A stretch of 64,000 bases of DNA. Origin: an uncultured Methylococcaceae bacterium. GTDB lineage: Bacteria > Pseudomonadota > Gammaproteobacteria > Methylococcales > Methylococcaceae. The DNA is taken from positions 124,001 to 188,000 of the forward strand of contig CAIOOA010000067.1 in the NCBI GenBank assembly GCA_903859815.1, written 5' to 3'. This document shows, piece after piece, positions 8,768-22,924 of the stretch; positions within the stretch are counted from its first letter, which is position 1, and every line of letters begins with the position of its first letter. The notes below the pieces were generated by a model that worked only from the letters and a program-made list of their open reading frames with translations, was not told where the DNA came from and ran no database searches. Made by a program: the position numbers and the translations under genes.

Positions 8768-8814
8768 GCTCCATCAGCCGGAAGAAGCATAGCTGTGCCA
8801 GCGGATAGCGCAAC

Positions 8815-9124
8815 AGTGAGAGGGAGAAGCGCTGCGCTGCTAGCGGACACTTTCATCAACACCAGAGAGAAGCGCTGCGCTACTTGCGGACACCTTCATC
8901 AACGCCAGAGAGAAGCGCTGCGCTGCTAGCGGACACTTTCATCAACACCAGAGAGAAGCGCTGCGCTGCTTGCGGACACCTTCATCAACGCCAGAGAGAA
9001 GCGCTGCGCTGCTTGCGGACACCTTCATCAACACCGGAGAGAAGCGCTGCGCTCCTAGCGGACACCTTCATCAACGCCAGAGAGAAGCGCTGCGCTCCTA
9101 GCGGACACTTTCATCAACGCTAGG
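8815..9124. repeat. Tandem repeat array, 43-bp unit, about seven copies
   Basis: Near-identical 43-bp units. The landmark GAGAAGCGCTGCGCT recurs at 8824, 8867, 8910, 8953, 8996, 9039 and 9082, exactly 43 bp apart. Each unit splits into a 22-bp half (GAGAAGCGCTGCGCT plus GCTAGCG) and a 21-bp half (GACACTTTCATCAACACCAGA-like). Copies differ mainly at T/C in CTTTC/CTTC and at GCTAGC/GCTTGC. Diverged units flank it on both sides (about 8780-8815 and 9124-9165). As 43 is not a multiple of three, the long open frame through it is not a credible gene. Confidence 0.9.
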
Positions 9125-9165
9125 GAGAAACGTAGCAGTGCGAGCAGACAGCGCAACAATACGAG

Positions 9166-9270
9166 GGAGAATGGTCTTAGAAGTTCAAAGAAACGTCTTT
9201 GAGTCGCGGAGAACTGTCTCCGAGTTTCGGAGAAGCATCTTCTTCATGCGGAGAATCATCCATGATGCGG
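9166..9270. repeat. 21-bp periodic array of small hairpin units
   Basis: Five consecutive 21-bp units start at 9166, 9187, 9208, 9229 and 9250, four of them with (G/A)(G/A)AGAA. At least three are self-complementary with different stems: AAAGA/TCTTT at 9187, GGAGA/TCTCC at 9208 and GAAG/CTTC near 9231. The primary sequence drifts but pairing is kept. It continues directly from the 43-bp array, whose unit is close to twice 21 bp. Confidence 0.7.
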
Positions 9271-9374
9271 ATTTCCAAGCTTCAACATCAAAGCCAGTCA
9301 CTTAATCCGTAAGCCCGGAGTGCAAGACTTGCCTTGCAAGGACTTCCAACAGCTGGTCAATACCGGGGAAGTAG

Positions 9375-9460: not shown

Positions 9461-11872
9461 CTACTGGCAACCCGCCAAAGGAAACCAATAGGAGGTTGGA
9501 CCTTCGTCCTGCATTTTCCCATTCTGCCCTAGGTAATAAACATGCTTGTCCACCGAAGAAACCCCGAGGTAGGCTTTGGTTGCCGAATAGTAACGATAGG
9601 TATAGACATCCCAAACCGCCGTGGCAAAGCCGGAGGGCGCGAACAGACCGGGATAGTTTTTTTCCGCCCAGTTAAACAGGCATTCGGTTGGAGGCGGGGG
9701 AATTGTGCAACCCGCCACCTGCAACCAATCATTCAGCGGGCCGACATCCTGCGATGTTCCATCAGCCAATTGATAAGACACATGCTGGTTTGACGATGAA
9801 ACCCGTAAAGAGGCGTTGGTGTTCGAATAATAGCGATAGGTGGTATCGCCCGACACCGCCGTGGCAGTGCCAGACGGTGTAAACAGCCCGGCATATTTTT
9901 GCTCTGCCCAGTTGAACAGGCAATTAATATCACTGGTAAGCTTAGCGACGAAGGCATCACCGTTGCTAAATGCTCGTAGCGGGCTGCCCCAACTGGCTTG
10001 ACTGGAACCGACCACATAGACATTGCCGCTGCCGTCAACCGCGATACCGGAGCCGCTATCGACATCCCCGCTGCCCAGGAAGGTGTTCCAAATAAGCTGG
10101 CCCGAACTGTCGACCTGGGCGGCGAAGGCATCTATGAAGAGATACGCCCGCTGCGGGTTGCCCCAAGTGGCGAAACTGGAAGAACCGACCACATAGGCAT
10201 TGCCGCTACCGTCCACCACGATGGCATAGACAGCATCGTCCATACCACCTAGGAAGGTGTTCCAAACGTTCTGCCCCAAGTTGTCGAGCTTGGCAACAAA
10301 TGCATCATGGAAGACGCCGCCAAACGCCCGCTGCGGGCTACCCCAGGTGGCTTCACTCCTGCCTGCGACATAAGCATTGCCGCTGCCGTCCACCGCGATG
10401 GCGGAGCCAGCATCGTACATCTCGCCGCCAAAGAAGGTGTTCCACAAGAGTACCCCCGTGCTGTCGAGCTTGGCGGCGAATGCCTCATTGCCGTTAAGGC
10501 TAATAAACTCCCGCTGCGGGTTGCCCCAAGTGTCGGTACTGTCACCGGTCACATAAGCATTGCCGCTGCCATCCACCGCAATGGCGTAGCCATCATCGCC
10601 ACCCGCACCGCCTAGGAAGGTGTTCCAAACGATCGACCCAAAGCTGTCGAGTTTGGCGACAAAGGTATCAGTGTAGACGCCGCCGCCATAAGCTGCTCGC
10701 TGCGGGTTGCCCCAAGTGGTGTTACTGTAACCGACCACATAGGCATTGCCGTTGCCGTCCACCGCGATGCCGTTGCCTATATCACCCCCAGCACCGCCCA
10801 AGAAGGTGTTCCAAACGAGCTGTCCAAAGCTATTGAGTTTGGCGACAAAGGCATCAGTGTCGCCGCCATAAGCCCGCTGCGGGCTGCCCCAACTGGCTTG
10901 ACTAGTACCGGCCACATAGACATTGCCGCTGCCATCCACCGCGATGGCGGCTTTGCCATACGCACCGCCTAGGAAGGTGTTCCAAATCAATTGGCCCGTG
11001 CTGTCGAGCTTGGCAACAAAGGCATCAGAGATACCGCCGTCAAACGCCCTCTGCGGTCTGCCCCAACTATGGCTACTGCGACCGGCTACATAGACATTAC
11101 CGCTGCCGTCCGCAGCGATGGCATAGCCATCATCGGACCACGCACCTCCCAAAAAGGTATTCCAACTCAGCGTGGGGTCAATCCACACAGGCAGGGCGGG
11201 GTCGTGGTCGCCAAGCTTAAAGCCCAGTTCCTGCTCGCTGTTCAGCGCGAAGGCCACCGCCACGGGTTGCCGCTGTCCGTTCTTTTCCTGCCACGCGATA
11301 GGGGCAGATTCGGTTAGATTGCCGATAGGGTAGCGGATGTTCAAGCTACCGTCTTGGTTGAGCGTCAACGGGCGGTTGTAGCGCAACCGAGCTTGACTGA
11401 TATCCGCGCCCGGTTCGACTTTCCAGACAGTTTCGGCGATGCCATCGGGTTCAGCCTGGTAGCTTAGGTCAATGCCCTGCCACAAGCCGGGGTAGCGGAC
11501 TTCGGACAAGGCAGGGGTTTTGTTGTCCTTGCCGTCGCCGCCGGATGGGTCGCTTTGCGGGGCAATGGGGTTGGCATTGACGAATTCCACTTTCAATGAA
11601 TGAGTCCCACTGGCGAACAGCACCGAGCCAACATCAAAACCCAAGACATGACCCTTGGAGGAGAATTGCCGCAAACTGGCGGACGGAGTGGCTGAATCAA
11701 GGGTTTGATGTAGCGTTCGGCCCGCATCAGGCTTGGCGGTCGGTACAAGAGTGTACCCTGATGCCGGCGGTGACGAATCACATCCCGACAAACCAAGACA
11801 CAAGGCCATCAGGAAGCCGAATGTAAACGCAAACGGGCCGCGAAGAACCAGAGGGTGCAATGATAGTTTCAT
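9461..11872 (-). CDS. SBBP beta-propeller repeat lipoprotein with duplicated C-terminal domain
   Basis: An 803-residue exported lipoprotein. The ATG at 11872 is preceded by AAGGGA at good spacing and starts a signal peptide ending in the lipobox LSGC (Cys at about 31). A DUF7948-like N-terminal beta region (about 50-230) is followed by seven SBBP repeats of about 60 residues, each built as WNTFLGG...(Y/G)AIAVDGSGN(V/A)YV-G-S...WG-PQRAF. They should fold into a beta-propeller on the cell surface or in the periplasm. The last ~145 residues hold two copies of a ~70-residue domain, each starting CLFNWAE and ending (V/L)AGC, with a YRYYS core, separated by a Pro-rich linker. The Cys residues could form disulfides. 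Its binding partner is unknown. The gene is monocistronic. Confidence 0.85.
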   Translation of the reverse strand: MKLSLHPLVLRGPFAFTFGFLMALCLGLSGCDSSPPASGYTLVPTAKPDAGRTLHQTLDSATPSASLRQFSSKGHVLGFDVGSVLFASGTHSLKVEFVNANPIAPQSDPSGGDGKDNKTPALSEVRYPGLWQGIDLSYQAEPDGIAETVWKVEPGADISQARLRYNRPLTLNQDGSLNIRYPIGNLTESAPIAWQEKNGQRQPVAVAFALNSEQELGFKLGDHDPALPVWIDPTLSWNTFLGGAWSDDGYAIAADGSGNVYVAGRSSHSWGRPQRAFDGGISDAFVAKLDSTGQLIWNTFLGGAYGKAAIAVDGSGNVYVAGTSQASWGSPQRAYGGDTDAFVAKLNSFGQLVWNTFLGGAGGDIGNGIAVDGNGNAYVVGYSNTTWGNPQRAAYGGGVYTDTFVAKLDSFGSIVWNTFLGGAGGDDGYAIAVDGSGNAYVTGDSTDTWGNPQREFISLNGNEAFAAKLDSTGVLLWNTFFGGEMYDAGSAIAVDGSGNAYVAGRSEATWGSPQRAFGGVFHDAFVAKLDNLGQNVWNTFLGGMDDAVYAIVVDGSGNAYVVGSSSFATWGNPQRAYLFIDAFAAQVDSSGQLIWNTFLGSGDVDSGSGIAVDGSGNVYVVGSSQASWGSPLRAFSNGDAFVAKLTSDINCLFNWAEQKYAGLFTPSGTATAVSGDTTYRYYSNTNASLRVSSSNQHVSYQLADGTSQDVGPLNDWLQVAGCTIPPPPTECLFNWAEKNYPGLFAPSGFATAVWDVYTYRYYSATKAYLGVSSVDKHVYYLGQNGKMQDEGPTSYWFPLAGCQ

Positions 11873-21538: not shown

Positions 21539-22063
21539 TCAACTTCTGCCAATAAATAGCGGTTTCGATAGCGAGGGCCAAGCCGTCGTCTTGACGAGGT
21601 TGACAAGGACATCCAGTTCCTTCTCCGCCGAACCCCTGACCCGCTCGTCCCAACCGAGTGCATGGCGGACATTTGACATCACTCTGCGAATTTCCTCCAC
21701 TTCAGTGAGTCGAGCCGCATCGGACCCTCTCATCGCGGCTGGCAAATCCCTTTCTGTCACCCCTGCGAGTAGCGGGTAGGTTCGCTTAGCCAATACCCAA
21801 GCCCCACCAAGTTCAAACATGCACCATGGACTTTGCAAGCTATTCGGCGTCAACAGACTGAGGACGCAGGAGGATTGGGTCAGATGATTGCGTAGATGCA
21901 GACTCACATCCGAGCCCTCCGGTTCACGGTATTTCGGAAAGTCATGCGATGTGCAGAGAATGCGTTCTCGCGGCACCATGGTTGCCTCGATCACGTCTAC
22001 GAGTGCAGCAGCAATTTTTTTATCATCATGAGAATGACTGATGAAAAGACGAATATCACCCAT
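21539..22063 (-). CDS. Stand-alone TIR-domain protein
   Basis: A 174-residue protein consisting of a TIR domain with a short helical tail. Visible features: beta-A strand DIRLFISHSHDDKKIAAALVD, the BB-loop region RERILCTSHDF, the helix LRNHLTQSSCVLSLLTPNS, and SPWCMFELGGAWVLAKRTYP, where the Glu of WCMFE fits the conserved catalytic Glu of NAD-hydrolysing TIR domains. Bacterial TIR proteins act in abortive infection by consuming NAD+ or by making cyclic ADP-ribose signals, or as secreted effectors; no signal peptide is seen. The start is preceded by GAGGAAA at 9 nt. No companion (ThsA, SLOG, AGO or STING) is adjacent, so a defence role is only an inference. Confidence 0.85.
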   Translation of the reverse strand: MGDIRLFISHSHDDKKIAAALVDVIEATMVPRERILCTSHDFPKYREPEGSDVSLHLRNHLTQSSCVLSLLTPNSLQSPWCMFELGGAWVLAKRTYPLLAGVTERDLPAAMRGSDAARLTEVEEIRRVMSNVRHALGWDERVRGSAEKELDVLVNLVKTTAWPSLSKPLFIGRS

Positions 22064-22269
22064 GGTGTTTATTTCCTCGCTGTTCGGAACGAAAGACTTA
22101 AATTTTGATTATGTTCTTGGGAATATGGGCTGTCAATGCTCCTCGATTTTCAGCGAACCCTCAGCATCGATTGTAAGTGTAAGGCGGAATAATAGTTGGC
22201 TGGACAGGCTAGTCGATTTAACCCTATGTCGGTTTGAAAAATTGATTCCGCAATGGTTTTTGGACATCG

Positions 22270-22601
22270 CAACTATGCTGAGGAACAGTCACCAAGCATT
22301 TTTCACCGTTCCCCGGCTATTGCGGAACAATCCTCAAGCCTTGCGGAGCGTTCCTTAAGCATTGCGACGCTTCCTCAAACACTGCGGAGCATTCCCTGAC
22401 GGTTGAGGAATGCTCCTCAGCGGTTAAGGAGTGTTCCTCAAGCCTTGAGGAATGGGCTAAACGATTTTGCACCATTCCCCAAGCCTCTAGGATGCTACCC
22501 AATCTTCGGGGAATGCTCCGCAAATCTTGAGGAGCATTCAAAAACCGTTGGGGAATGCTCCACAATGTTTGGTGAACGGTGCAAAAGCTTGGGGGAACGT
22601 G
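22270..22601. repeat. Array of about fifteen 20-21-bp self-complementary units
   Basis: Contiguous units start at about 22291, 22311, 22332, 22353, 22373, 22394, 22415, 22436, 22457, 22477, 22498, 22518, 22539, 22560 and 22581; most are 21 bp, four are 20 bp. The clearest unit (22436) has the palindrome CCTCAAGCCTTGAGG, and the junction between units also pairs (GAGGA-ATGC-TCCTC at 22405-22418), so the array is nearly the same on both strands. Both strands translate into seven-residue repeats (LRNAPQ-type and EHSST-type), but the 20-bp units break the frame. Units differ widely yet keep pairing. No gene is supported here. Confidence 0.85.
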
Positions 22602-22630
22602 GAGAGAGAAGATATAACGGCTACCCCGTC

Positions 22631-22653
22631 ATTCCGGCATGGACCGCCGGAAT
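22631..22653. repeat. dRS3-like palindrome
   Basis: ATTCCGGC-ATGGACC-GCCGGAAT, with GTC before and CCC after. It resembles the short ATTCC(N)GGAAT inverted repeats scattered in many proteobacterial genomes. The remaining DNA at 22654-22924 shows only the untranslated leader of the next gene. Confidence 0.6.
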
Positions 22654-22924
22654 CCCAACTGCATGGATGCTTGCAAGTTCAATCCCCCCTAAATAGGAAA
22701 GTGTTGACCGTCGTTCACAACCGTAGACAACTTGTGCAAGATAAGATATTTTCGGGCTTCTGATTGATGAGTGAGGCTCATATTGTAAGTAACTCAAAAT
22801 GACAGTTAGCACTCACTAGTGCTAGACTTTTATGTCTTGCGAGTGCGGCTTACGGCGGACCACGCAAGGGCGTTGACGGCGCAGCAGTCACCGTTTTTTT
22901 CCGCCCATAGACTGAGGTTTAGAC

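Follow-up and report, generated by a model that had tools for sequence, protein, structure and literature searches.

The repeat array described here is, judged from alignments with homologous loci, a stranded copy of a two-part module, one that has kept its array and lost its gene. We conclude with high confidence that the complete module consists of about 15 to 20 dyad-symmetric 21-bp units, a short leader with a ribosome-binding site, and a gene for a protein of about 229 aa. The module is found in several bacterial groups and is apparently undescribed; no description of it was found in the open-access literature searched. The stretch of DNA analyzed (the window) comprises 64,000 nucleotides from an uncultured Methylococcaceae bacterium and corresponds to G000:C67:124001-188000 of the 5.8-Mb genome G000. 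The first-pass annotation of this sequence had offered three options for the array, a transcribed multi-hairpin RNA, a protein-binding array, and a replication-slippage product, among which a protein-binding DNA array appears to survive best.

Layout of the window array

The array is non-coding, and its units are contiguous and degenerate, with no spacers between them. At 21 bp, the autocorrelation of positions 22270 to 22601 was 0.492, compared with a maximum of 0.349 for the best of periods 15 to 49 in 1,000 dinucleotide shuffles, and the unit-parsing score was 183.7 versus 45 or less in 20 shuffles. About fifteen contiguous units, mostly of 21 bp, had been counted from the letters; the parse recovers the same number (Table 1), far above chance in shuffles. 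The reported 20-bp units are present as well, although the parse finds one fewer than the four given earlier. The unit consensus CTCAAGCGTTGAGGAACGTTC is symmetric on one circular axis (dyad z 5.8, equaled in 0 of 300 column permutations), while shuffled sequence passed through the same pipeline gave a dyad z of -0.19 ± 0.67. Centered on this axis, the array reads GTTCC.CAA.c.TTG.GGAAC. A single circular axis means that the unit center and the unit junction both pair, so the self-complementary frame with pairing junctions noted in the first-pass annotation holds for the unit consensus. The GAGCATTCC core lies mostly in one orientation in the first half of the array and as its reverse complement in the second.

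The window lacks the 229-aa gene; tblastn with four family proteins gave no significant match there. In G005:C194, the family gene's start codon lies about 40 bp past the segment that matches window positions 22574 to 22702; because this part of the window aligns to the spacer leading into the gene, we take the window copy to be a solo array, with homology to the gene-linked module ending at a junction near 22702. Other solo arrays are found at C67:235.45k, at C242:15.6k, and on three G004 contigs.

Table 1. Features of the module copy in the window
Feature	Position	Strand	Evidence
Left leader of the module, common to two copies in sister species G001 (contigs C523, C481)	22195..22269	+	Homologous-locus alignment; blastn of window versus C523 starts here
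Repeat array; 15 units without gaps, twelve 21 bp and three 20 bp long; consensus CTCAAGCGTTGAGGAACGTTC	22270..22602	+	Unit parse, autocorrelation, dyad test
Array end and post-array spacer, 84% identity to G005:C194:12748-12875	22574..22702	+	blastn
REP-like dispersed element GTCATTCCGGCATGGACCGCCGGAATCC..., in the spacer directly after the array	22626..22671	.	Many matches per sister genome
Junction where homology to the gene-linked module ends	22702..22703	.	blastn ends here

Several other features of the window were observed. A stand-alone TIR-domain protein (PF13676) adjoins the array at 21539-22063 on the minus strand and is not tied to arrays elsewhere. A second non-coding array occupies 8787-9172, flanked by two genes that converge on it, and has no nearby family gene; it has about 18 units alternating between 21 and 22 bp, which form a 43-bp higher-order repeat with copies 92% identical, lacks dyad symmetry, and is followed by a few 21-bp units (9189-9242). 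It may be a further solo array that was amplified recently. At 9971-11165, a repeat-protein gene (SGNVYVAG / FAKLDSTGQLIWNTFLGG repeats, beta-propeller type) contains tandem repeats of roughly 180 bp.

The 229-residue protein family and its upstream arrays

Five of the six sister species, which belong to the genus of Candidatus Methylumidiphilus, carry homologues of the window array, and the genome itself holds one more copy at C75. These homologous arrays lie directly upstream of a 229-aa gene: within about 150 bp after most full-length copies there is a 229-codon open reading frame (ORF) starting MPTSSYMPKDD, the exceptions being the window copy and its G002 orthologue. Close copies share homology from the start of the array to the stop codon of the gene, where it mostly ends, and their flanks differ.

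A tblastn search found 180 relatives of the protein in named genomes, 80 of which were kept; they belong to Methylococcales (including Crenothrix and Methylobacter), Gallionellales, Zoogloea, Thiodictyon, and Verrucomicrobia. A 21/42-bp array lies at most 900 bp upstream in 62 of the 74 named-genome relatives with enough upstream sequence to be counted, and downstream in 2 of 70. When all subfamilies are pooled, 78 of 93 family genes have such an array within 700 bp upstream (downstream, 2 of 85). Of these 93 genes, 75 pass at period 21 and 64 at period 42, compared with 0 to 7 at each other period from 15 to 49; the remote subfamilies B and C likewise carry upstream arrays. A 704-kb sample of the genome itself, partly chosen around family contigs, contains 14 blocks at period 21, 15 at period 42, and 0 to 5 at other periods. 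Plain slippage, one of the origins suggested in the first-pass annotation, does not explain this upstream linkage at one fixed period.

Other than the 229-aa family, no gene is a constant neighbor at array loci. CCDC90-like/DUF1640 genes were considered as a second partner and rejected, since other DUF1640 genes have no arrays. A degenerate 21-bp array is nevertheless seen directly upstream of one such gene (L044 8566-9013, G000:C67:46.56-47.01k; counterpart in G002:C474), and the distance between a second DUF1640 gene of this genome (C67:236.2k) and a solo array is 240 bp.

The 229-aa protein has no match in Pfam, NCBIfam, PHROG, or PADLOC. In its AlphaFold2 model (pLDDT 85), the N-terminal part is helical and the remainder forms a beta-sandwich similar to fibronectin-III and cytokine-receptor domains; the N-terminal domain modeled alone (pLDDT 88) found no fold match in PDB or BFVD. 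These profile and fold searches revealed no recognizable DNA-binding domain, and the N-terminal 130 residues of the family have a median pI of about 6.1 and are thus not basic. Codon positions 1 and 2 of the gene are far more conserved than position 3, the pattern expected of a functional gene under purifying selection. Most sister species contain 5 to 17 tblastn matches to the family per genome, fragments counted, and G003 contains 1. We found no membership of the family in a defense system, and no relatives in the plasmids, phages, and viral contigs searched. At G005:C194 (L054, about 8800-9300), a short perfect hairpin (TATTTTCTTTTCACCCCGCGCTGCGGGGTGAAAAGAAAATA), which may be a tiny insertion element, interrupts the family gene.

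Unit turnover and candidate functions

The geometry of the arrays is far more constant than their sequence. Spacing is exactly 21 bp in 91.8% of 898 linked unit intervals, and the unit consensus is dyad symmetric in 73.5% of 68 arrays (mean z 3.26), about a quarter showing no significant dyad. Motif similarity is 0.8 to 0.9 above 75% protein identity and equals the permuted-column null (0.31) below about 65%, with motifs ranging from TTTTGTCACATGACAAAA in Zoogloea to GTCTAGCAATCATTGCTAGAC, GCTCATCAATCATTGATGAGC, and TTTACC...GGTAA; array identity tracks the third codon positions of the family gene. The first-pass annotation had proposed that pairing is kept while sequence drifts, and the drift proves to be far larger than a single array can reveal. 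Aligned on the dyad axis, ten motif clusters share the weak pattern RYYNNNCAANSNTTGNNNRRY (3.27 bits versus 1.07 ± 0.24, z 9.2, 0 of 1,000 permutations); the clusters are not fully independent by descent, and the common core and the period may be partly ancestral. Intergenic indels are expected to destroy a 21-bp register before similarity vanishes, and we therefore infer that the constant period reflects constraint. In L063, L068, and L074, the first array unit is the same palindrome CATCAAGCCTTGATG and the remaining motifs are different, which suggests that one subgroup conserves the unit at which its arrays start.

We give about an even chance to the reading in which a dimeric protein binds the arrays as phased dyad sites in double-stranded DNA and controls or marks the neighboring gene. 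The array would act as double-stranded DNA, each unit offering two half-sites around a dyad with the core CAA-NSN-TTG, and a second dyad (RRY|RYY) would lie one helical turn (10.5 bp) away, at every unit junction. As 21 bp is two turns of B-DNA, all units would present the same face, a dimeric protein could load side by side along them, and the resulting nucleoprotein patch would control or mark the adjacent gene. Units would turn over by duplication, inversion, and conversion, which would give each array a new spelling and keep the spacing, the symmetry, and the weak core. Our guess is that the gene's own product, as the sole constant partner, would be the likeliest ligand of the array beside it. 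Speaking against these proposals, the solo arrays in the window, at C67:235.45k, and at C242:15.6k persist without the gene; the L063 and L068 genes are about 84% identical and their arrays have different flanks, so that any matching change in protein specificity would have to be small; and the encoded protein is neither basic nor endowed with a known DNA-binding fold. It is doubtful that the 229-aa proteins are a new DNA-recognizing type, with a helical and a fibronectin-III-like domain, each reading a private 21-bp dyad array, so that several independent protein-array pairs would exist per genome, spread as modules, and re-spell their arrays on divergence.

The arrays might also be a mutational by-product. 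Their units would be made and homogenized in both orientations by template switching at quasi-palindromes, slippage, and unequal crossing-over, and the array would travel with the gene and do nothing. The arrays drift at about the synonymous rate; their units occur in both orientations, often in runs, which by itself suffices for a symmetric consensus; solo arrays survive; and the weak covariation within units (described below) is what template switching predicts. We nevertheless consider a purely mutational by-product unlikely, since constraint is needed to account for the upstream placement at 78 of 93 genes of a single family, for a near-invariant period despite complete loss of similarity, and for a common core on the dyad axis.

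Arrays might instead be read by structure, like attC sites or REP hairpins, and be moved together with the gene by a recombinase or transposase acting in trans. The number of family matches per genome, the end of copy homology at the stop codon, the existence of solo arrays, and a RAYT-like ORF just upstream of the array at a few loci (L043, L170) are consistent with such a mobility signal. It is decidedly unlikely, however, because array loci have no constant recombinase neighbor, target-site duplications were not detected at them (4.23 versus 4.13 ± 0.24), the strong compensatory change expected of folded sites is absent, and the plasmids, phages, and viral contigs contain no relative.

Compensatory change also bears on whether the array works as RNA, either as an mRNA 5' leader or as a separate RNA of 15 to 20 hairpins. 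The first-pass annotation had noted substitutions in one arm matched in the other, a claim that is borne out weakly: raw Watson-Crick pairing within units showed no excess over 48 arrays (observed/expected 0.979), and once units were oriented, the ratio for paired changes rose to 1.053 versus a null of 1.006 ± 0.012 (mean per-array z 0.87, p 2e-4; window array z 2.1). The excess of compensatory change within units is thus slight, about 5%. There was no excess of G-U pairs (0.974) and nothing off-axis (0.994). The fold predicted for the window array is very stable, with z -10.1 and -9.4 on the two strands, and over the arrays the real unit order folds slightly better than shuffled units (mean z -0.77); any symmetric repeat gives such stability, however, equally on both strands, and after composition correction the sense strand folds better in just 25 of 57 arrays, which is no preference. 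The whole array as one long hairpin was rejected, unit-order shuffles being nearly as stable. Homologous arrays have no common fold and share few pairs, the covariation term over eight of them is unfavorable (+3.69 kcal/mol), and the window has no Rfam match. With neither a sense-strand nor a G-U bias and no conserved fold, a hairpin RNA is disfavored and very unlikely, and half-sites for a dimeric protein would fit better.

That the array is degenerate coding sequence of a heptad-repeat protein is scarcely credible: the period is an exact multiple of three (21 bp, seven codons), some arrays have long open frames (L190, L191, L193), and the seven-residue repeat reported on both strands is real locally, but 20-bp units break its frame in the window copy and most arrays have stops in all six frames, at close to the shuffled frequency (mean minimum 2.6 per array versus 2.9 in shuffles), so that the heptad repeat is a by-product of the 21-bp period.

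Comparison with known systems

Dyad binding-site arrays are well known from plasmid and viral maintenance, including iterons, F sopC/SopB, pSK41 parC/ParR, and the EBV family of repeats bound by EBNA1. Such arrays have tandem units of about two (or four) helical turns, often dyad symmetric, beside the gene of the binding protein, and their sequence varies between systems while the geometry is kept. The module resembles them in its tandem spacing at helical turns and its dyad consensus. It differs from iteron and partition arrays in being chromosomal and multi-copy within a genome, with its own sequence in each copy; no domain known from replication, partition, or DNA binding is present in its partner protein, an ATPase partner was not seen, and neither family nor fold matches revealed a Rep/ParR/ParB-type neighbor, nor were there plasmid or phage relatives.

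REP/BIME elements with their RAYT transposases share with the module palindromic intergenic units, a mosaic of orientations, and a dispersed distribution, and a RAYT-like ORF stands beside a few arrays. REP, however, is one sequence genome-wide, whereas module arrays each have their own sequence at a fixed 21 bp and are tied to one gene family; a DNA search of the genome with the window array returned one other large array of that sequence and a small match, the consensuses of the remaining arrays being unrelated. The REP-like element at 22626-22671 is separate from the array units. Integron cassettes likewise combine a gene with an imperfect palindrome, and attC is read by structure more than by sequence; in the module, by contrast, the array is upstream, has 15 to 20 units, and is scattered rather than set in a cassette row, no integrase neighbor was seen, and the compensatory excess within units, unlike that of attC, is slight. 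Bacterial minisatellites and VNTRs, and the cyanobacterial STRR and LTRR, are also non-coding short tandem repeats between genes, but they are untied to one gene family and have no period and dyad that survive sequence turnover. CRISPR arrays have near-identical repeats with unique spacers, unlike the spacerless, degenerate units seen here, and structured RNAs of the Rfam kind would show a covariation-supported fold, which the array does not. By geometry, then, the module is likened to iteron and centromere arrays; it appears to fail their other defining features and those of REP/BIME, attC, CRISPR, and Rfam families, in agreement with the first-pass view that no named element matches.

A cis element whose geometry is kept while its sequence is lost, tied to an unannotated gene family over Proteobacteria and Verrucomicrobia, is missed by homology searches. 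The module would be a natural system for studying how binding arrays re-spell in step, by molecular drive or by selection, and its array linkage gives a first clue to the function of a gene family that is multi-copy and lacks annotation.
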